A stretch of DNA of 13,217 bases, from positions 1 to 13,217 of the forward strand of contig JAGGVT010000107.1 of assembly GCA_021157815.1 (NCBI GenBank). The letters run 5' to 3'. The DNA is from a bacterium. GTDB taxonomy: Bacteria; JAJVIF01; JAGGVT01. Each line of letters starts with the position of its first letter. Within the stretch, counting starts at the first letter, position 1. The notes beneath the pieces were generated by a model. The model worked only from the letters and a program-made list of their open reading frames with translations. It was not told the DNA's origin and searched no databases. The translations under genes were made by a program, and so were the position numbers. Of this stretch, positions 1 to 13,191 are shown in pieces.

Positions 1-25
1 GAAAAAGCCTATTATATCCCAGACC

Positions 26-93
26 GTAGGGGCAACTCTCCGTGGTTGCCCCGTATTTATGCCAATATTTAGGGTAGGCACAGAGACCTACCC
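26..93. repeat. Two tandem hairpin repeats of the GTAGGGGC type
   Basis: Two stem-loops are visible. The first pairs GGGGCAAC (29-36) with GTTGCCCC (45-52) around an 8-nt loop. The second pairs GGGTAGG (72-78) with CCTACCC (87-93), also around an 8-nt loop. The first is preceded by GTA on the plus strand. The second reads TGTAGGGGG into its stem on the minus strand. The look is of a dispersed intergenic repeat rather than a terminator, because no T-run follows either stem. Similar modules occur near 9343-9380 and 11191-11222 in this window. Confidence 0.6.
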
Positions 94-104
94 CCTACAT
101 TCAG

Positions 105-125
105 CCCTTTTTCAACATCCCCTGG
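105..125 (+). repeat. TTTTTCAACA-box dispersed repeat, copy 1
   Basis: The core TTTTTCAACATCCCC lies at 108-122 and is followed by TGGA. The same core with one or two changes occurs at 7024-7038 and 9409-9423 on this strand, and inverted at 6829-6843. At 6829/7024 the two copies are the ends of a palindromic element, so this copy may be one remaining end of such an element. All copies are intergenic. Confidence 0.55.
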
Positions 126-180
126 AAGCCCGCAGCACAAACTTAGGAATATTAGCATTAATTTGAATGCAACTTGGTAT

Positions 181-332
181 AACTTGCTAACCTGCCAACC
201 TGCCAACCTGCTAACCTGCCAACCTGCTAACCTACTAACCTGCCAACCTGCTAACCTACTAACCTGCCAACCTGCCAACCTACTAACCTGCTAACTTGCT
301 AACCTGCTAACTCGCTAACCTGCTAACTTATC
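181..332 (-). repeat. Eight-base minisatellite array, 19 units
   Basis: Nineteen consecutive 8-bp units run without any insertion or deletion. On the plus strand they read AACCTGCT, AACCTGCC, AACCTACT or AACTTGCT, which on the minus strand is GGTTAGCA and relatives. A degenerate twentieth unit follows at 333-340. Unit differences are transitions, except in the last unit. A 24-bp higher-order period is visible at 213-284 (GCC, GCT, ACT endings repeated three times with one change). The same repeat family, in the opposite orientation, follows purB at 10832-11119. There are no spacers, so this is not a CRISPR. The array lies between the TTTTTCAACA box and the holA promoter. Confidence 0.9.
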
Positions 333-374: not shown

Positions 375-427
375 CACATCTGACAGCGTTTTGCTCTTTA
401 ATTTCCTGATTAGCAGGAGTTTATGCC

Positions 428-1426
428 ATGCACCATCTCATTCAGGGAGATGACGAATACCTGGTCGCTGTAAAGCGTGATGAGCTTCAGGCGAGTTTCC
501 TGCGCGATGGTGATGCAACCATTGAACATCTGGATGGCACGAATAAAAAAACTGACCTGACCTCGCTTTTTCAATCCACTTCAACACTATCATTCTTCGA
601 GACACGAAAAATTGTAATTCTCGAAAACGCCAGTGAGTTTTTCGAGCGGGAAAAGAAATATCTGGCAAAAAAGGCCGGGATGAAAATCCTGGAGGACACG
701 CTCTCGGTTGGCGATGATGTCCTTTTGATTTTATGCTCGTATGAAAAGAGAATCGCGAAAAACACTCGTGTCTATAAAATGATCAGCCAGATGGGGAAAG
801 TCACGGAACTGAAAAGAATGTGGCACGACCCCAACGAGGGTTTGACGGGAGATCTTCAACGTTGGGTTCGCGCTGAAACAGCGAAGCGAAAACTCAATCT
901 ATCGGCAAAACAGCAGAATATGCTTGTTGCCCGTGTCGGCAGTGATCTCAGGCAAATCGCCAATGAACTCGACAAGTTAAAAGTCTATCTTGATGACGAT
1001 CCTGTGTCGAATCTGGATGCCAAAACACTGGCACATCTTGTGCCCCCAAGCCGAGAGTTGATAATCTTTAATCTCATCGACGCTGTCGCGCAGAAAAACT
1101 GTAAAAGAGCGCTGGCGTTTGTTAAAGACCTGACTACAAGCGGTTTAAGCGAATCGCATATTATAATGATGCTGCACCGTCAACTGCGGCAGATTTACTC
1201 ATGGCGGATTCTGGCAAAAAGGGAAATACCTGAAAACGATATTACTGCGGAACTTGGATTGACTCCTTTTACAACGCGAAAGTTGAAATCGCAAATCGGC
1301 AAATTCCCAACCAATAGTTTCCCCAGAATAATCAGCGCCCTTATATTAGCTGACGAGGAAGTAAAAAGCTCATCAATGGATAAACGGTTCATTCTGGAAA
1401 AACTGATAATCAGGCTGACGGGGTGA
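428..1426 (+). CDS. holA: DNA polymerase III subunit delta
   Basis: This is the delta subunit of the clamp loader, which opens the beta sliding clamp and helps load it onto primed DNA. At 332 residues it has normal family length. Family features visible are the N-terminal GDDEYL motif (residues 7-12); the segment STLSFFETRKIVIL (52-65), matching the beta-clamp-contacting region where most members read S-x-F-x-x-x-R followed by hydrophobics; and VGSDLRQIANELDKLKVYL (170-188), typical of the second domain. As expected for delta, no working P-loop is seen. The ATG at 428 is supported by AGGAG at 415-419. The ATG at 423 is out of frame. A promoter with an extended -10 sits upstream and the next gene starts 4 nt after the stop, so the two are probably co-transcribed. 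Confidence 0.93.
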   Translation: MHHLIQGDDEYLVAVKRDELQASFLRDGDATIEHLDGTNKKTDLTSLFQSTSTLSFFETRKIVILENASEFFEREKKYLAKKAGMKILEDTLSVGDDVLLILCSYEKRIAKNTRVYKMISQMGKVTELKRMWHDPNEGLTGDLQRWVRAETAKRKLNLSAKQQNMLVARVGSDLRQIANELDKLKVYLDDDPVSNLDAKTLAHLVPPSRELIIFNLIDAVAQKNCKRALAFVKDLTTSGLSESHIIMMLHRQLRQIYSWRILAKREIPENDITAELGLTPFTTRKLKSQIGKFPTNSFPRIISALILADEEVKSSSMDKRFILEKLIIRLTG

Positions 1427-1430
1427 AATA

Positions 1431-3104
1431 GTGGCCCGTCGAAAAAATAATAACAAACAAAATTCCCCTGTTCCCAAAATCAATTTTCAGAGCCTGAGGC
1501 TGTATGGTTTTTGGGCGCTAATCATTATTGTTATTTTTGGCGTTTTGATTTTTCTCGGCAGTAGTGTTTTCCTCAATTTTTACCGCGAACATATAACAGA
1601 TTACATAAATAAATACTCTGAAGGGCATCTGGTTGTCGCTGAAATAAAGGGGAATATCGCATCATATCTTATCCTGGAGGATGTTTACTACACAGTCAAG
1701 GATGTTGTCCCTCCGGAATATGTATTCACAAGCGACAGCATAGCCCTTAAATTCAGCATCTGGGACCTTCTCTCCAGAAATGTAATTCCTAAAAAAGTTA
1801 TTCTTGACGGCTTTGCTCTTCACATCAGGCAGGATGAAGATGGTAATTACATACTCCCCCGCATTACACCACCTCCTGAAAATGCTCAGGGTGGACAAAT
1901 GAGCATGCCGGATATGAGAATAATCATTAAGAACTCAAGCCTTGATTACACTGAAAACAAGCGCAAATTTAAAAACCCTCTGGAATTAAATGTGGATGAT
2001 ATCAATGCGAGTGTCTTTCTGAATAAATCGGGCAAGCTTAAAATTCGAAGATGCACAGGCAAATTCCTGGAATCCGAATTATCCGCTCGAGGTGAAATAG
2101 AAACTTTTTCATCGTATGAATCCAGTTTGAAATTAGATGTTGAGAAAATCGCGTTGTGGCAGCTTGCCAACACGCTGGGACGTCTCTTCCCATCCGAAAG
2201 CAAACTCAGACCAACCGGAGACGGTGAAATACAGGTCAGGATTTCAGGTCCTATACTTAATCCGAGAATTGAGGGCAAAGGCCATCTGGACAAAGCGACA
2301 ATCGGCAAATTCCATATTGAGGATGCGCATTTCAAACTGAAATACATGAATAAAAATGTCGAACTGACAGAAGGAATTGCGAAATGTTACGACGGCAGAA
2401 TCATTATATCTGGAGAAATTAATGCGGATGCTAATCCGCCGAAATTTAAACTGGATGCCAAAATGAAGGATTTCAACCTGGGCATGTATATAAAGCAGCT
2501 GGAGTGTGGTGTTGATCCGGTTTCAGGTTCGTTTGACGGCAAATTCACATGCAGCGGTGATTTTGTCAATCTGTCCGGTTTTAAAGGGGAAGGCGAATTA
2601 AGCTGCGAAAACGGCATGTACCTGAATCCATTCAAGAAAGCATCAACCGGCTTGTTTAAAAAACGCCAGGAAGTGCGAATGGGATTCAAAAGCCTTGACA
2701 TGGACCTGGCAATAAATGAATTGGAGGTTTTCCTGAACAGGTTTGAGATGGAAAGCAGCTCGACCAAAATAGACGCTGATGGGATAATCGATTTCGACGG
2801 CTCAATGAATCTGGAGGGAACAATCATCGCTGACAGTCAACTGTTCAAGTTCAATGAGAGATTCAGCGAGTTATTTGAACTGCTCCCTGCACGTAATGTA
2901 AACATTCCAGTCAGGTTCAGGCTGACAGGCAAGCCGTCTGAATATATCCTTGAATCAGCCTTTCCCGAGGAGATAATCGACAAGTATTTAGGCAACGATG
3001 AAACCCGCAAACGCGCCGCGCAAAAACTCCTGGAGAAATATTTCGGTGAAGCCGCCGGGATGTTTTCTGAAACAATCCCGGATATAAGCCCGGATACCAA
3101 CTGA
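1431..3104 (+). CDS. AsmA/TamB-like membrane-anchored protein
   Basis: The 557-residue product starts at GTG. It has a short basic N-terminus (MARRKNNNK), one strong membrane segment at about residues 24-48, and a long beta-rich remainder expected to lie on the periplasmic side. Residues about 66-140 have the AsmA/TamB N-terminal pattern: an Ile/Val-rich strand followed by GNIASYLILEDVYY, then a strand ending in WDLL, then a DG-x-x-L-x-I strand. The C-terminal part contains IPVRFRLTGKPSEYILE, like the closing strands of AsmA-type domains. Family members are linked to outer-membrane biogenesis and inter-membrane lipid transport; that role here is inference. The gene starts 4 nt after holA, and its likely binding site GGGGTGA overlaps the holA stop, suggesting coupled translation. 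The subfamily (AsmA, TamB, YhdP or a lineage-specific relative) cannot be decided by eye. It is much shorter than E. coli TamB. Confidence 0.7.
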   Translation: MARRKNNNKQNSPVPKINFQSLRLYGFWALIIIVIFGVLIFLGSSVFLNFYREHITDYINKYSEGHLVVAEIKGNIASYLILEDVYYTVKDVVPPEYVFTSDSIALKFSIWDLLSRNVIPKKVILDGFALHIRQDEDGNYILPRITPPPENAQGGQMSMPDMRIIIKNSSLDYTENKRKFKNPLELNVDDINASVFLNKSGKLKIRRCTGKFLESELSARGEIETFSSYESSLKLDVEKIALWQLANTLGRLFPSESKLRPTGDGEIQVRISGPILNPRIEGKGHLDKATIGKFHIEDAHFKLKYMNKNVELTEGIAKCYDGRIIISGEINADANPPKFKLDAKMKDFNLGMYIKQLECGVDPVSGSFDGKFTCSGDFVNLSGFKGEGELSCENGMYLNPFKKASTGLFKKRQEVRMGFKSLDMDLAINELEVFLNRFEMESSSTKIDADGIIDFDGSMNLEGTIIADSQLFKFNERFSELFELLPARNVNIPVRFRLTGKPSEYILESAFPEEIIDKYLGNDETRKRAAQKLLEKYFGEAAGMFSETIPDISPDTN

Positions 3105-3190: not shown

Positions 3191-4855
3191 ATGAAACGAA
3201 CATTTATCTCAGCAATTCTGCTAGGATTTCTCAGCATCTTATGCGGATTTACAACCGCGAATGCCACGGAGGAAACAGCACAGAACGCATTCAGGGAAAT
3301 CGGAGCATGCGACATGTCTGAGTTTTTCTCATGGCCTGTTTCCTTATCAACCTGCAATGATAATTATGGCTTTTTCACAGGTTACATTGAAACGACGGAG
3401 AACAATCAAAAGAAAAGGATTCAACATCTAGTAACAGTTGATCTGGAATCATTGGAAGTAGTTTCAAATGTGGAGATGGATTGGAAGATTAAAAGCATGT
3501 GCGCCACAAATGATTATCTGTATGTTCTGCATGTAATAACAAGACAAGAACATGAGGATACAACCGCTCATTTGAGGATTTTTGATGTGTCTAATCCTCA
3601 AAACAATTCACTTTTAGATTATGAATTAACTTTCAGGATAAATGGCGGCATTTTGCTTGTTGAGGATGACAATCTGGTTCTGGTCGCCGAAAGTTACACA
3701 TTGAAAGATGTAAACACAAAAATATTTCACATGAATATCAGCAATCCTGCAAAGCCTGAAAAACTCTCCAGCAGTTTCGTTGATGTCAAGAACGTCAGCC
3801 CGGTAATCGGCGATGATGGGAAAGCGGTGCGGGATGAAAATGGCAAAGTGGTTTATCGTTCGCTCAAGGACCATCATCACTCAATAATAGGAAAAGCGCA
3901 CAATGCCAGGTTGAATGGTGATTACCTGTACTTCATTCTTAATAATGACATATGGTCGTTTGATCTGGAGGGGCGCAATGAAGAGGGTGAAAAAAGCGAT
4001 CCTGAGGAAAGCAGGCCATTCTACATGGGTAGGTTAAAGGAAGAATATTCTCCGATTAGCAGCGCATCAAATAAAATCTATAACTACTGCTGGTCAGATA
4101 CTGAGGAAGAGGGATTTTTTAAAGGTGCCGATTATTTTTTTTTTCTTGGTGAGAATGAAAACGCTTTTAATATTACAGAACGAAAAATCGGCGAGCGCAC
4201 AATAAAAACACCCATAAGGAAATTTGGAGTTCTGGTGTTTCATTCCACGCACCAAAGCTACATGGGCGGCCATGGAGACACAAAGGTAACCAGGTGCCAT
4301 AAAATGTCTCAATTGGAACTTGAGTTTACGCCTTTATCAATCGAGTCAAATGGAAACTGGGTTTATGTGACAGGATATGAAGAAATCTTCACTGAAGAAA
4401 TGGAAAGAATGAAGCGTAAAGGCATCTTGTGTCTTCTTGATTCGTATAATCCCAAAGAAATCAAACTTGTCGATACAACCAGCACGGACTGGTATCCGTA
4501 TAAAACCATGAGAAATGGCAACAGATTATATATTACCGATTTGCAATCAAAACTGCATGTTCTGGAAATGACTCTTGAAAGCAAGGGATTCTCAAAGGAA
4601 ATATACAAACCCATGTCGAAAGCGGATAAAAAGAGAAGTGATAGCTACTTAAGGAAAGGACTGCCCAGATACTACATTTATCGCTATCAGGGTTATGATA
4701 TGGCATACAGGGATAAAATCAGCATCACAAAAAACAAGATGCCCAAAACCCGCATAATGGATTGGAAAATGGTAGGAATTGGCAAGGGAATTATTGTTAA
4801 TATATGGGAGTATATTCCTTACGAAGTCAGGCGGCGCTATAAACCATTTACATAA
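3191..4855 (+). CDS. Secreted beta-propeller-like protein of unknown function
   Basis: The 554-residue product has a clear Sec signal peptide: MKR, a hydrophobic core (about residues 5-20), then ANA with likely cleavage after Ala25. The mature part has recurring blade-like segments, for instance LRIFDVSNPQ-NNSLLDYEL, IFHMNISNPAKPEKLSS, LCLLDSYNPKEIKLVDTTS and LYITDLQSKLHVLEM. These resemble LVIVD-type repeats and secreted beta-propeller proteins. No catalytic motif is recognisable. A short His-rich stretch (DHHHS) lies near residue 228. The start is supported by GAGGTG at 3180-3185, 5 nt before the ATG. The 86-bp gap upstream holds no convincing promoter, so it could be read from holA or from its own weak promoter. 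A run of ten T residues lies inside the gene (4135-4144). The fold is inferred from sequence pattern only. Confidence 0.6.
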   Translation: MKRTFISAILLGFLSILCGFTTANATEETAQNAFREIGACDMSEFFSWPVSLSTCNDNYGFFTGYIETTENNQKKRIQHLVTVDLESLEVVSNVEMDWKIKSMCATNDYLYVLHVITRQEHEDTTAHLRIFDVSNPQNNSLLDYELTFRINGGILLVEDDNLVLVAESYTLKDVNTKIFHMNISNPAKPEKLSSSFVDVKNVSPVIGDDGKAVRDENGKVVYRSLKDHHHSIIGKAHNARLNGDYLYFILNNDIWSFDLEGRNEEGEKSDPEESRPFYMGRLKEEYSPISSASNKIYNYCWSDTEEEGFFKGADYFFFLGENENAFNITERKIGERTIKTPIRKFGVLVFHSTHQSYMGGHGDTKVTRCHKMSQLELEFTPLSIESNGNWVYVTGYEEIFTEEMERMKRKGILCLLDSYNPKEIKLVDTTSTDWYPYKTMRNGNRLYITDLQSKLHVLEMTLESKGFSKEIYKPMSKADKKRSDSYLRKGLPRYYIYRYQGYDMAYRDKISITKNKMPKTRIMDWKMVGIGKGIIVNIWEYIPYEVRRRYKPFT

Positions 4856-9532: not shown

Positions 9533-10837
9533 GACGAACGATACTGCCTTGAAAAAATGAAACGTGTGTGGTCATACGAAAATCGTTTTCGCAAATGGCT
9601 CTTAATTGAACTAGCAGTATGCCGTGTACGCCACAAACGGGGAGAAATCCCCGATGACGCCATGAGCGATATCGAACAGAAAGCGGATTTCGATATCGAC
9701 AGGATTAATGAAATCGAGGCAGAAACGAAACATGAGCCGATTGCTTTTCTGACATCGGTAAATGAATTTGTCGGTCCAGCCGGCAGGTTCATTCATGTCG
9801 GGATGACATCCTCGGATATCATGGACACCGGATTGAGCCTGCAAATTATGGACGCCTGCCATATTATCGAGGACGATTTAAAGCAGATTTATAAAGCGCT
9901 TGTACAGCTTGCGCTCAGGTATAAAGACCAGATTCAGATGGGGCGCTCGCACGGTGTTCACGCTGAACCTGTAACTTTCGGATTGAAGATGCTTCTGTTC
10001 GCCGAGGAATTCAAACGCAACATGCAGCGATTCGATGATGCAATAAAGATGATTGCTGTCGGGAAAATATCCGGCGCGGTTGGCACTTTCGCGTTTCTTG
10101 ATCCTGAACTCGAAGAGGAAGCGCTTGCTGAAATTGGCCTTAAAGCCGCAACGGTTTCAAATCAGATTGTCCAGAGAGACCGTCACGCGCAGATGATATC
10201 AACGCTTGCGATAATAGCCGGTTCACTGGATAAACTAGCAGTTGAATTACGGCATTTGCAGTGGACGGAGGTCGGTGAAGCCGCGGAGGGATTCACCAAA
10301 GGGCAAAAAGGTTCCAGCGCGATGCCGCATAAGAAAAATCCTGTTTCACTCGAAAATATCAGCGGCCTGGCAAGAGTGATTCGCGCAAACGCTCAGGCTG
10401 CGTATGAGAATCAGACTCTATGGGCTGAGAGGGACATTTCACATTCATCGGTCGAGAGAGTTATTTTCCCGGACAGTTTCCTTCTGATGAACTACCTTCT
10501 AAATCGCATGAACACAGTTTTGGAAAACCTTGTTGTCAACGGCGACCGGATGCTTGAAAACATGAAACATTCCTACGGCGCTTTTTTCTCGCAGCGATTG
10601 ATGCTTGAGATAATCGCGAAAGGCAAATCACGTGAGGAGACATACCCGATTGTCCAGAAACTCGCGCATGAAGCGGTAGAGGAAAAGGGCAGTTTTGAGA
10701 AGGTCGTGCGGGAGTCGAAGGAGCTAAAAAAGCTTTTCACTGATGAGGAATTAGACGCGATATTCGATTACGGCTATTTCACACGGCACGTAAACGCGAT
10801 TTTCCGGCGTGCCGGTTTGAATGTGGATAATGGTTAG
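9530..10837 (+). CDS. purB: Adenylosuccinate lyase
   Basis: PurB cleaves SAICAR to AICAR and adenylosuccinate to AMP, each releasing fumarate. The 435 residues are normal for the family. Fumarase/aspartase-superfamily features are the KHEP histidine (H68), IHVGMTSSDIMDTG (88-101, with H89), GRSHGVHAEPVTFG (138-151, with general-acid candidate H141) and the flexible-loop signature GSSAMPHKKNP (261-271) with the catalytic serine at 262/263. The start is TTG, supported by GAGAGGA at 9516-9522; the opening residues DERYCLEKMKRVWS align with the usual IERYT-x-x-EM-x-x-IWS. The stop codon TAG is part of the first eight-base unit of the downstream repeat array, so the array begins inside the gene's last two codons. 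No terminator follows. Confidence 0.96.
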   Translation: MDERYCLEKMKRVWSYENRFRKWLLIELAVCRVRHKRGEIPDDAMSDIEQKADFDIDRINEIEAETKHEPIAFLTSVNEFVGPAGRFIHVGMTSSDIMDTGLSLQIMDACHIIEDDLKQIYKALVQLALRYKDQIQMGRSHGVHAEPVTFGLKMLLFAEEFKRNMQRFDDAIKMIAVGKISGAVGTFAFLDPELEEEALAEIGLKAATVSNQIVQRDRHAQMISTLAIIAGSLDKLAVELRHLQWTEVGEAAEGFTKGQKGSSAMPHKKNPVSLENISGLARVIRANAQAAYENQTLWAERDISHSSVERVIFPDSFLLMNYLLNRMNTVLENLVVNGDRMLENMKHSYGAFFSQRLMLEIIAKGKSREETYPIVQKLAHEAVEEKGSFEKVVRESKELKKLFTDEELDAIFDYGYFTRHVNAIFRRAGLNVDNG

Positions 10838-11119
10838 CAGGTTAGTAAGTTAGCAGGTTAGTAGGTTAGCAGGTTAGTAAGTTAGCAGGTTAGTAGGTTA
10901 GTAAGTTAGCAGGTTAGCAGGTTAGTAAGTTAGCAGGTTAGTAGGTTAGTAAGTTAGTAAGTTAGCAAGTTAGCAGGTTAGCAAGTTAGCAAGTTAGCAG
11001 GTTAGTAAGTTAACAGGTTAGCAGGTTAGTAAGTTAGCAGGTTAGTAAGTTAGCAGGTTAGCAGGTTAGTAAGTTAGCAGGTTAGTAAGTTAGCAGGTTA
11101 GCAGGTTAGTAAGTTAGCA
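10832..11119 (+). repeat. Eight-base minisatellite array, 36 units
   Basis: Thirty-six consecutive 8-bp units read (A/G)GTTAG(C/T)A with no insertion or deletion in 288 bp. Only position 1 (A/G) and position 7 (C/T) vary, plus one unit AGTTAACA at 11008. From 11016 the units follow a perfect 40-bp higher-order period of five units, about 2.6 copies. A degenerate GGTTGG ends the array. The first unit supplies the purB stop codon. Because each unit contains TAG and 8 is not a multiple of 3, all three plus-strand frames close quickly. The same family occurs inverted at 181-332. Units abut directly, so this is not a CRISPR. Confidence 0.92.
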
Positions 11120-11146
11120 GGTTGGAGAAATTGAATTGCTAAATAA

Positions 11147-11338: not shown

Positions 11339-11977
11339 TTATTTAAGTGATATCCCAGCAGCTAATGCCATCTGAACCATTTCATCAAGCATCATTTTGA
11401 AATGTGGACATTTGTCATAAACAACCTGAGGGTCCAATCGACTGAACAGATCACAACCATCGGTGGTTTTCTTATAGCTTCTTTTCGATTTTCTTTTGTT
11501 ATAAATATCCTGAATTACTTTTGATGGGTGGTTTTTGAAATTAACTCTTTCAGGATTTGCTGAATATTTATTTAGCTCGTCTCGTCGATTGCTTTGAAAA
11601 ACATTTGGGTCACTGAGAAGCCACGCTTCAAATTCATGCACCGCAAAGAACATCCTGAACTGATTATGATTTACATGATTCTCAATGGCTGCCTTTTTAT
11701 CCTTGAATAATTTAGCAACTCCTTTGGTGGTTCCCTTATGGTCAAAACCCAATCCATATAGGTCCAATAGGCCAATAACCGCCAGAATCTCTTTTTTCCT
11801 ATCTTCCTCTAAGAGTTTTTTTGCCTGCTTTTTGAATTTATCTTCCAGCTTTCCACCGATGGTAATCCTTTGCTTTATCCCGACTTTTTCGTTTAGTTTG
11901 CTATCCAACCATCTTTTTAGAAACTCCTGAATTGCTAATCTTTCAGTTTTCCCCTCGACGATTATGATGAATTTCAT
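11339..11977 (-). CDS. DUF4276 family protein, partner of the adjacent ATPase
   Basis: The 212-residue protein matches DUF4276. The opening IIIVEGKTER (4-13) carries the glutamate of a Toprim-like fold. LLDLYGLG (70-77) carries an acidic residue (D72) where the family has a D-Y-Y/LYGLP motif. HEFEAWLLSDP (114-124) is the family hallmark. The C-terminal K-x-Y-x-K...G and the CPHF segment (about 180-193) fit the family ending. Toprim-type partners of AAA ATPases in OLD, PARIS and AbiL systems act as nucleases; nuclease activity here is inference. Translation is coupled to the ATPase gene: its ATG shares one base with the ATPase stop (TAATG), and GGAGGA (11989-11984) lies 6 nt upstream inside the ATPase gene. 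The 3' end faces purB. No transmembrane segment or signal is seen. Confidence 0.8.
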   Translation of the reverse strand: MKFIIIVEGKTERLAIQEFLKRWLDSKLNEKVGIKQRITIGGKLEDKFKKQAKKLLEEDRKKEILAVIGLLDLYGLGFDHKGTTKGVAKLFKDKKAAIENHVNHNQFRMFFAVHEFEAWLLSDPNVFQSNRRDELNKYSANPERVNFKNHPSKVIQDIYNKRKSKRSYKKTTDGCDLFSRLDPQVVYDKCPHFKMMLDEMVQMALAAGISLK

Positions 11978-13191
11978 TACATATCCTCCAATTGGCGCAT
12001 TCTAAACATTTCACCAAGCGAATATTCCTTAAGCCATGACTTGAGTTTTTTCTTTGGTAGAATCTTCAGAGTGGTTTTACCATTAACACATTCCGTTACT
12101 GTTGTCGTTGGAGTTACGCTATGGAATGCATCCAGGAAATCAGCTGAGTGTGTCGTGATAATCACTTGTGTACGCTTTGACGCATCCACCGCGAAGTCAG
12201 CGATTATTGACAGCATCGTTGGATGAAGCCCGGTTTCCGGCTCATCGATAGCGACAAGGGAAGGTGGTTCAGGATTGGCAAGGATTGTTATCAAAAACAG
12301 GAAACGCAATGTGCCATCAGATATGTCAAGAGCTGATACTTCTCTCTTTAAAGATTTCCACCTGATTCTAAGTTGTATTTTTTGATCAGACGCCGGAGGG
12401 AAAACCAGTTTGTCAAAATCATCACCGAATGCGCTTCTCATCGCTAAATCAACGCTATTTTCAAAATCACGATTGCCCGTATATAGAGTGTGTAGCACTG
12501 AAATCAGGTTTGAACCATCAGGTTCAATTGTAGGGTCATACTGCGTAATGACTGGTTGCCTAATGGGAGCATCAGGTTCAGTTCGCAGATAATGATAGAA
12601 ACGCCAGTTTATAAGTTCTTTTTTATATTTAAAAAGCTGACTATACTCAGGCAATATGCTAGGTAGAGTTGATAATATGGTTTCAAAAAAATCTCCTCCA
12701 ATTGTATCTACAAGTTTACCTTCAAATTCGTTAAAAACACTGGATCCACCTATAGATTCTTTTATTAGTTCAATAGGCTTTGCTTTTTCTTTTTTCTTTG
12801 TTCTTAAATGTGCTGAAAGCAATTCTTGACAGTAGTAATTGATTTCAGGTGCATTATCATAAAACTGTAATTTATAGTCAAGCAAATAGTCAAGAGTCTT
12901 TGCTCGAGGAAAGTCACTACTTTTCGAAAAAGATAATTTGTGCGGAAAAGTTGTTAGGTTTATATCAACTAATTTAGCTGTTCCATCCCATAAAATCGAA
13001 TCCAAACCACCTTCCCTCCTAATAAATTCATCTAATCCTCCTTTTGCGGAGTGAGATATTAGTTCCAAAGCTCTCATCAAATTTGACTTCCCACTTCCAT
13101 TTGGACCAATGATTACGTTCAAATCACCGGGAGACCAGGTAATATCCTTTAACGAACGAAAGCCTTTTACCTTTAACTTTTGTATTTTCAT
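11977..13191 (-). CDS. AAA_21/OLD-like ATPase, upstream partner of the DUF4276 gene
   Basis: The 404-residue protein is an ABC/RecF-type AAA ATPase of the AAA_21 (COG4637-like) group. It opens with KIQKLKVKGFRSLKD, typical of RecF/OLD heads. Nucleotide-binding parts are Walker A GPNGSGKSN (29-37), an ABC-like signature LDISDGTLRF (288-297), Walker B LVAIDEPETGLHP (312-324) with catalytic E317, and the switch histidine in ITTHSAD (H348). Residues about 85-285 form a variable insert without recognisable motifs. The tail SLGEMFRMRQL (391-401) resembles the family's usual ending. There is no C-terminal Toprim domain as in single-chain OLD proteins; that role may lie in the DUF4276 partner. The start is supported by AGGAAAGGA on the minus strand (about 13194-13202). 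The promoter is outside the window. The gene is clearly more A+T-rich than the riboflavin genes, consistent with transfer. Confidence 0.85.
   Translation of the reverse strand: MKIQKLKVKGFRSLKDITWSPGDLNVIIGPNGSGKSNLMRALELISHSAKGGLDEFIRREGGLDSILWDGTAKLVDINLTTFPHKLSFSKSSDFPRAKTLDYLLDYKLQFYDNAPEINYYCQELLSAHLRTKKKEKAKPIELIKESIGGSSVFNEFEGKLVDTIGGDFFETILSTLPSILPEYSQLFKYKKELINWRFYHYLRTEPDAPIRQPVITQYDPTIEPDGSNLISVLHTLYTGNRDFENSVDLAMRSAFGDDFDKLVFPPASDQKIQLRIRWKSLKREVSALDISDGTLRFLFLITILANPEPPSLVAIDEPETGLHPTMLSIIADFAVDASKRTQVIITTHSADFLDAFHSVTPTTTVTECVNGKTTLKILPKKKLKSWLKEYSLGEMFRMRQLEDM
11984..11989 (-). promoter_or_regulatory. Ribosome-binding site of the DUF4276 gene inside the ATPase gene
   Basis: GGAGGA on the minus strand lies 6 nt before the ATG at 11977 and is embedded in the last ATPase codons. 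With the TAATG overlap it makes reinitiation by the same ribosome likely. Confidence 0.7.

Follow-up and report, generated by a model that had tools for sequence, protein, structure and literature searches.

Organization of the gene pair

Two overlapping genes at one end of the analyzed DNA (the window; 13,217 nucleotides in full) raise the question of whether an ATPase and its DUF4276 partner form an anti-phage unit and, if so, whether this unit is new. The initial annotation had read them as an OLD-like ATPase coupled to a Toprim-like protein, suggesting a trigger-and-effector unit with a different effector family from those of PARIS and AbiL. The window is contig C171 in its entirety, from a draft genome of 3.2 Mb, and the features concerned are as follows.

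11977..13191, minus strand: OLD-type ABC ATPase (HEC-01A), 404 amino acids, ATG start; Walker A at 29-37, ABC signature SDG at 291-293, Walker B D316-E317, H348
11339..11977, minus strand: DUF4276 protein with a predicted Toprim fold, putative nuclease (HEC-01B), 212 amino acids, ATG start; putative metal site of E8, E12, D72 (DxY), E115, E117 and K170
11974..11990, minus strand: putative translational coupling site, GGAGGA within the final part of the ATPase gene, followed by TAATG, where stop and start codons overlap

On the coding strand, the junction of the two genes read ...TTGGAGGATATGTAATGAAATTC, in which TAATG is a one-base overlap and GGAGGA lies a few bases 5' of the ATG of the DUF4276 gene. 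This confirmed the annotated arrangement, and the layout is, by its sequence, typical of translational coupling. Since the ATPase start was located 26 bases from the contig end, the promoter and upstream side of the operon were out of view. The pair was solitary, adjoining purB and a lineage-specific octamer array; the visible neighbors were housekeeping genes, and the GC content of the pair (37-38%) was lower than that of its neighbors (40-50%).

Sequence and predicted structure of the ATPase

The ATPase matched AAA_21 (1e-33) and AAA_15 (1.9e-25) in Pfam, and two PADLOC models: HEC-01A PDLC04175 (1.4e-65) and PDLC04177 (8.7e-62, across residues 3-400). All of the motifs previously annotated were present. 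The Walker A (GPNGSGKSN), signature and Walker B residues were invariant or nearly so among 59 relatives. The switch His (H348) was replaced by Gln in 46 of these relatives, and is therefore not a hallmark of the family. In the predicted model (pLDDT of 89.8), the ATPase resembled SMC, Rad50, PtuA, retron Eco8 and OLD ATPase domains in the PDB, all with Z of 19-22, suggesting an ABC-type head that would dimerize on ATP. The alignments used for structure modeling were built without plasmid-derived rows.

Fold and putative metal site of the DUF4276 protein

The DUF4276 family was matched over the whole protein length (5.5e-34), together with OLD-like_TOPRIM (9e-4, below the family cut-off) and PADLOC HEC-01B PDLC04188 (2.2e-24, across residues 3-203). 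Searches of PDB sequences with the protein and its profile gave no credible match. An AlphaFold2 model with 74 relatives as input had a mean pLDDT of 90.9, and in a Foldseek search against the PDB only C-terminal regions of OLD proteins reached E≤1e-3. By VIA-align, the nearest characterized fold was that of Bp OLD (Z of 9.3, rmsd of 4.3, 168 residues aligned). The comparison with AriB and GajA, which the initial annotation had proposed, also had a Toprim-like outcome: Z of 8.2 over 169 aligned residues and 7.4, respectively. Since unrelated lumazine synthases scored Z from 7.3-7.6, approximately 1-2 Z units lower, the Toprim assignment was based on the consistent ranking of the OLD family together with the residues described below, rather than on Z alone. 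The model supported a Toprim fold with a helical insert, the likeness being at the level of the fold. PH0156 from Pyrococcus horikoshii (2p62), an uncharacterized solved structure, was tied with Bp OLD at Z of 9.3.

The acidic residues singled out in the initial annotation (E8, D72 and the H114-E-F-E motif) proved to be strongly conserved among the 74 DUF4276 relatives: E8 in 73, D72 in 74, and H114, E115 and E117 in 69, 71 and 74, respectively. E12 (70), E143 (74) and K170 (60; Glu in the other 14) were also conserved. In Bp OLD, metal A is bound by E400, D455 and D457, and metal B by E404, T506 and E508, with K562 also used (PMC6755086). The residues E8, E12, D72, E115/E117 and K170 occurred in the same order as these, and the spacings of E8/E12 (4) and E115/E117 (2) equaled those of E400/E404 and T506/E508; this residue pairing was derived from order, spacing and the alignment range (1..205/393..594), not from superposed coordinates. 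By order and spacing, we infer that the acidic residues fit the two-metal site of Bp OLD. The second acid of the DxD motif was Tyr in 66 of the 74 relatives, so that the putative site reads D-x-Y; among the minority were distant paralogues with Asp or Glu at this position. Nuclease activity is plausible in spite of this substitution, because the second Asp of Bp OLD contacts only metal-bound waters.

Pairing, distribution and gene neighborhoods

Among 80 DUF4276 loci in public species genomes, the ATPase gene was directly upstream, abutting or overlapping, in 76 (including L061, with a short and weak ATPase match, and L018, which repeats L004); in the remaining four, no more than 126 bases separated the start of the match from a contig end. 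One HEC-01B model was matched by 72 of 76 relatives. Three DUF4276 genes were found in the source genome and, with these included, seven in the class, all directly downstream of an AAA_21-type ATPase gene, and the pairing looks obligate. The pairwise identities of the two proteins were correlated (r=0.95 over 59 pairs; at most 0.28 in 2000 label shuffles), suggesting that they co-diverge, with r raised partly by shared host ancestry. The two further pairs in the source genome (L002 on contig C195 and L003 on contig C150) were very divergent and located beside housekeeping genes.

The DUF4276 tree was not a simple reflection of host phyla, in that members from Acidobacteriota and Planctomycetota were interleaved in the close clade. 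The family was absent from one of four genomes of the phylum. A DUF4276 pattern search of viral contigs gave no close relative, nor was a close relative found in phage records. On plasmids, only three weak DUF4276 matches were obtained, from two near-identical Piscirickettsia plasmids and one Fischerella plasmid. ATPase relatives on Klebsiella and E. coli plasmids (approximately 30% identity) were left out, since in the single record inspected (p1658/97) an incomplete gene table listed no DUF4276 partner.

Several relatives were located within immune loci. In proteobacteria, the gene orders were HmaB-pair-HmaA (L026), type III MTase-pair-REase (L028), and DrmD-pair-MTase-REase with type III restriction genes (L066; L072 was similar). 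In the window's own clade, a BREX locus enclosed a pair with 43% identity (L015), in the order of PglX, a 672-residue ORF without identification, the pair, PglZ, and BrxL fused to a kinase-like domain. The C-terminal kinase-like region of this BrxL-type ORF (L015:13169-15481) matched the PD-T4-6 and mad6 models.

The 80 immediate neighbors contained ResIII (10), N6_N4_Mtase (9) and SNF2 (7), each of which was found at most once among 80 control genes taken from these loci at distances above 6 kb. Next-door genes were therefore enriched for methylases and helicases, only a small part of which is explained by the longer proteins of the neighbor set (43 versus 29 thousand residues). The expectation that DUF4276 genes would cluster with defense genes was thus borne out for relatives in Hma, BREX, DISARM-like and restriction loci, but not for the window pair, with its housekeeping neighbors; most of its close clade also lay among housekeeping or metabolic genes.

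Relationship to HEC-01 and other systems

PADLOC-DB lists exactly this combination of an ATPase and a DUF4276 protein, as HEC-01A and HEC-01B. The pair is therefore a further member of a catalogued candidate system, and novelty of the effector pairing was not supported, although the biology proposed initially was largely upheld; the accompanying caveat of the initial annotation, that such pairs might already be listed as predicted defense genes, was correct. HEC-01 is reportedly a PADLOC-DB 2.0 candidate from a 2024 preprint by Payne et al., as cited in PMC12409356. It shares with the window the same two families and the same pairing, here as adjacent same-strand genes with a one-base overlap. 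While some HEC-01 relatives are literally embedded in Hma loci, the window copy was not embedded in any visible defense locus, and it belongs to a Planctomycetota/Acidobacteriota-type clade, which has approximately 25-28% identity with the proteobacterial clade found within Hma loci. HEC stands for "Hma-embedded candidate", and antiviral activity has been demonstrated for some HEC systems (PMC12988326, PMC12409356); HEC-01 is not named as tested in either paper. In a literature search for HEC-01, the sole relevant mention was a list of predicted systems in Desulfovibrio piger, and searching full texts for DUF4276 gave no paper. An earlier description of TOPRIM-linked OLD-ABC operons is credited to Aravind and colleagues in PMC12839542.

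PARIS (class 4 OLD) consists of AriA, an OLD-ABC ATPase, and AriB, a Toprim tRNase, encoded by separate genes as in the window. AriB is presumably a DUF4435 protein, as described in the initial annotation. The DUF4276 protein did not match DUF4435 (at E≤1, Pfam gave DUF4276 and OLD-like_TOPRIM only) or the PADLOC AriB model (at E≤0.1), and the matches of the ATPase to AriA models involved profiles of approximately AAA_21/AAA_15 length and were not specific. OLD and Gabija cut DNA. Class 2 OLD and GajA of Gabija combine OLD-ABC and Toprim domains with the same two-metal residue pattern as that predicted here, but in a fused protein, whereas the window carries separate genes; Gabija also adds a helicase (GajB), whereas no helicase gene was found in the window, in which the visible neighbor is purB. 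AriB resembles HEC-01B not only in fold but also in a conserved N-terminal Glu (E26), and cuts tRNA (PMC12409363).

WonAB, with proven phage defense, is a two-gene OLD-ABC ATPase-nuclease operon like the window pair, but its PD-(D/E)XK nuclease differs in fold from the DUF4276 protein (PMC12137116). With regard to MADS, the ATPase matched PADLOC mad3 (8.5e-27), and mad4 was weakly matched to residues 2-68 (E of 0.0018); however, the NCBIfam MAD3 score of 82.6 bits was below the cut-off of 420, and no other MADS genes were found in the window. The ATPase also matched the AbiLi model of AbiL (2.7e-21), but the DUF4276 protein matched neither RloB nor AbiLii.

Proposed function and alternative explanations

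The pair is very probably a phage-defense unit, and its mode of working is most likely that of PARIS or OLD, namely, an infection-triggered nuclease unit. We estimate a probability of approximately 0.72 that it is a member of HEC-01 acting as a split unit of the OLD type, with the ATPase as sensor and regulator and the partner as a two-metal nuclease of Toprim fold. For this unit, we infer the gating, trigger, nuclease activity and abortive outcome as follows. HEC-01A would sense infection and, before it, hold HEC-01B inactive. Infection may alter the nucleotide state of the ATPase, or the ATPase may bind a phage product, and the nuclease would then be released. The nucleic acid that HEC-01B would cut may be tRNA, the substrate in PARIS, or DNA, the substrate of OLD and Gabija; phage growth would stop, and the cell itself would probably be sacrificed. 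Should this reading hold, HEC-01 would be a split-OLD immune unit of wide distribution, present on its own as well as within immune loci of at least four kinds.

The archaeal OLD-family protein Cran1 is an ATPase-nickase, reported to be essential and apparently not antiviral (PMC12796447). By analogy, the pair may be a chromosomal housekeeping nuclease-ATPase for DNA repair, chromosome or cell-cycle function, and this fits the equal closeness of the ATPase fold to Rad50 and SMC heads, the adjoining purB, and the metabolic genes beside most close relatives. We consider it improbable, because the family is patchy and interleaved across phyla, missing from a genome of the phylum, present as three very divergent copies in a single genome, and found inside Hma, BREX and restriction operons. 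The mention of AbiEii in the description of PF13304 (AAA_21) would suggest a type IV toxin-antitoxin (AbiE-like) pair, but the ATPase has a complete set of ABC motifs and a fold of the OLD/SMC/Rad50 type instead of a nucleotidyltransferase, and the partner is Toprim-like and not an AbiEi-type regulator; on motifs and fold, this reading was rejected as scarcely credible.

The substrate of the proposed split OLD-type unit is a separate matter. That HEC-01B nicks or degrades DNA in the manner of Gabija and OLD, with an ATPase sensing nucleotide depletion or DNA ends, is a real possibility, somewhat short of an even chance: the best structural matches were C-terminal regions of DNA-cutting OLD proteins, and the spacing of Bp OLD is also seen for K170 and the putative second metal site (E12/E115/E117). 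On the other hand, the tRNase AriB, likewise part of a system split into two genes, has a Z score no more than approximately 1 unit away from OLD, and hence the fold does not decide the substrate. More tentative, and rather doubtful, is the idea that HEC-01B represents a distinct Toprim effector class with a D-x-Y site and its own substrate and trigger, shared by Hma, BREX, DISARM-like and type III restriction systems as a backup nuclease that would act once the host system has been blocked. The predicted nuclease activity can be tested directly through the putative active site (E8, E12, D72, E117 and K170, with D-x-Y in place of D-x-D), which is also relevant to effector swapping among OLD-type modules. 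The remaining interest of the pair lies in this testable Toprim site and in the occurrence of one module in several immune systems.

Other features of the contig

Two ORFs were located between holA and rimO: an AsmA/YhdP-like ORF (1431-3104) and a 554-residue ORF (3191-4855) without a clear family match in the profile search. Two intergenic arrays (180-327 and 10832-11123) consisted of one octamer in opposite orientation (TAACCTGC / GGTTAGCA). A 24-mer of this array had no match in three other genomes of the class or as a reversed control, and 130 exact matches across dozens of contigs of the source genome; judged from these counts, the arrays are a lineage-specific dispersed minisatellite.
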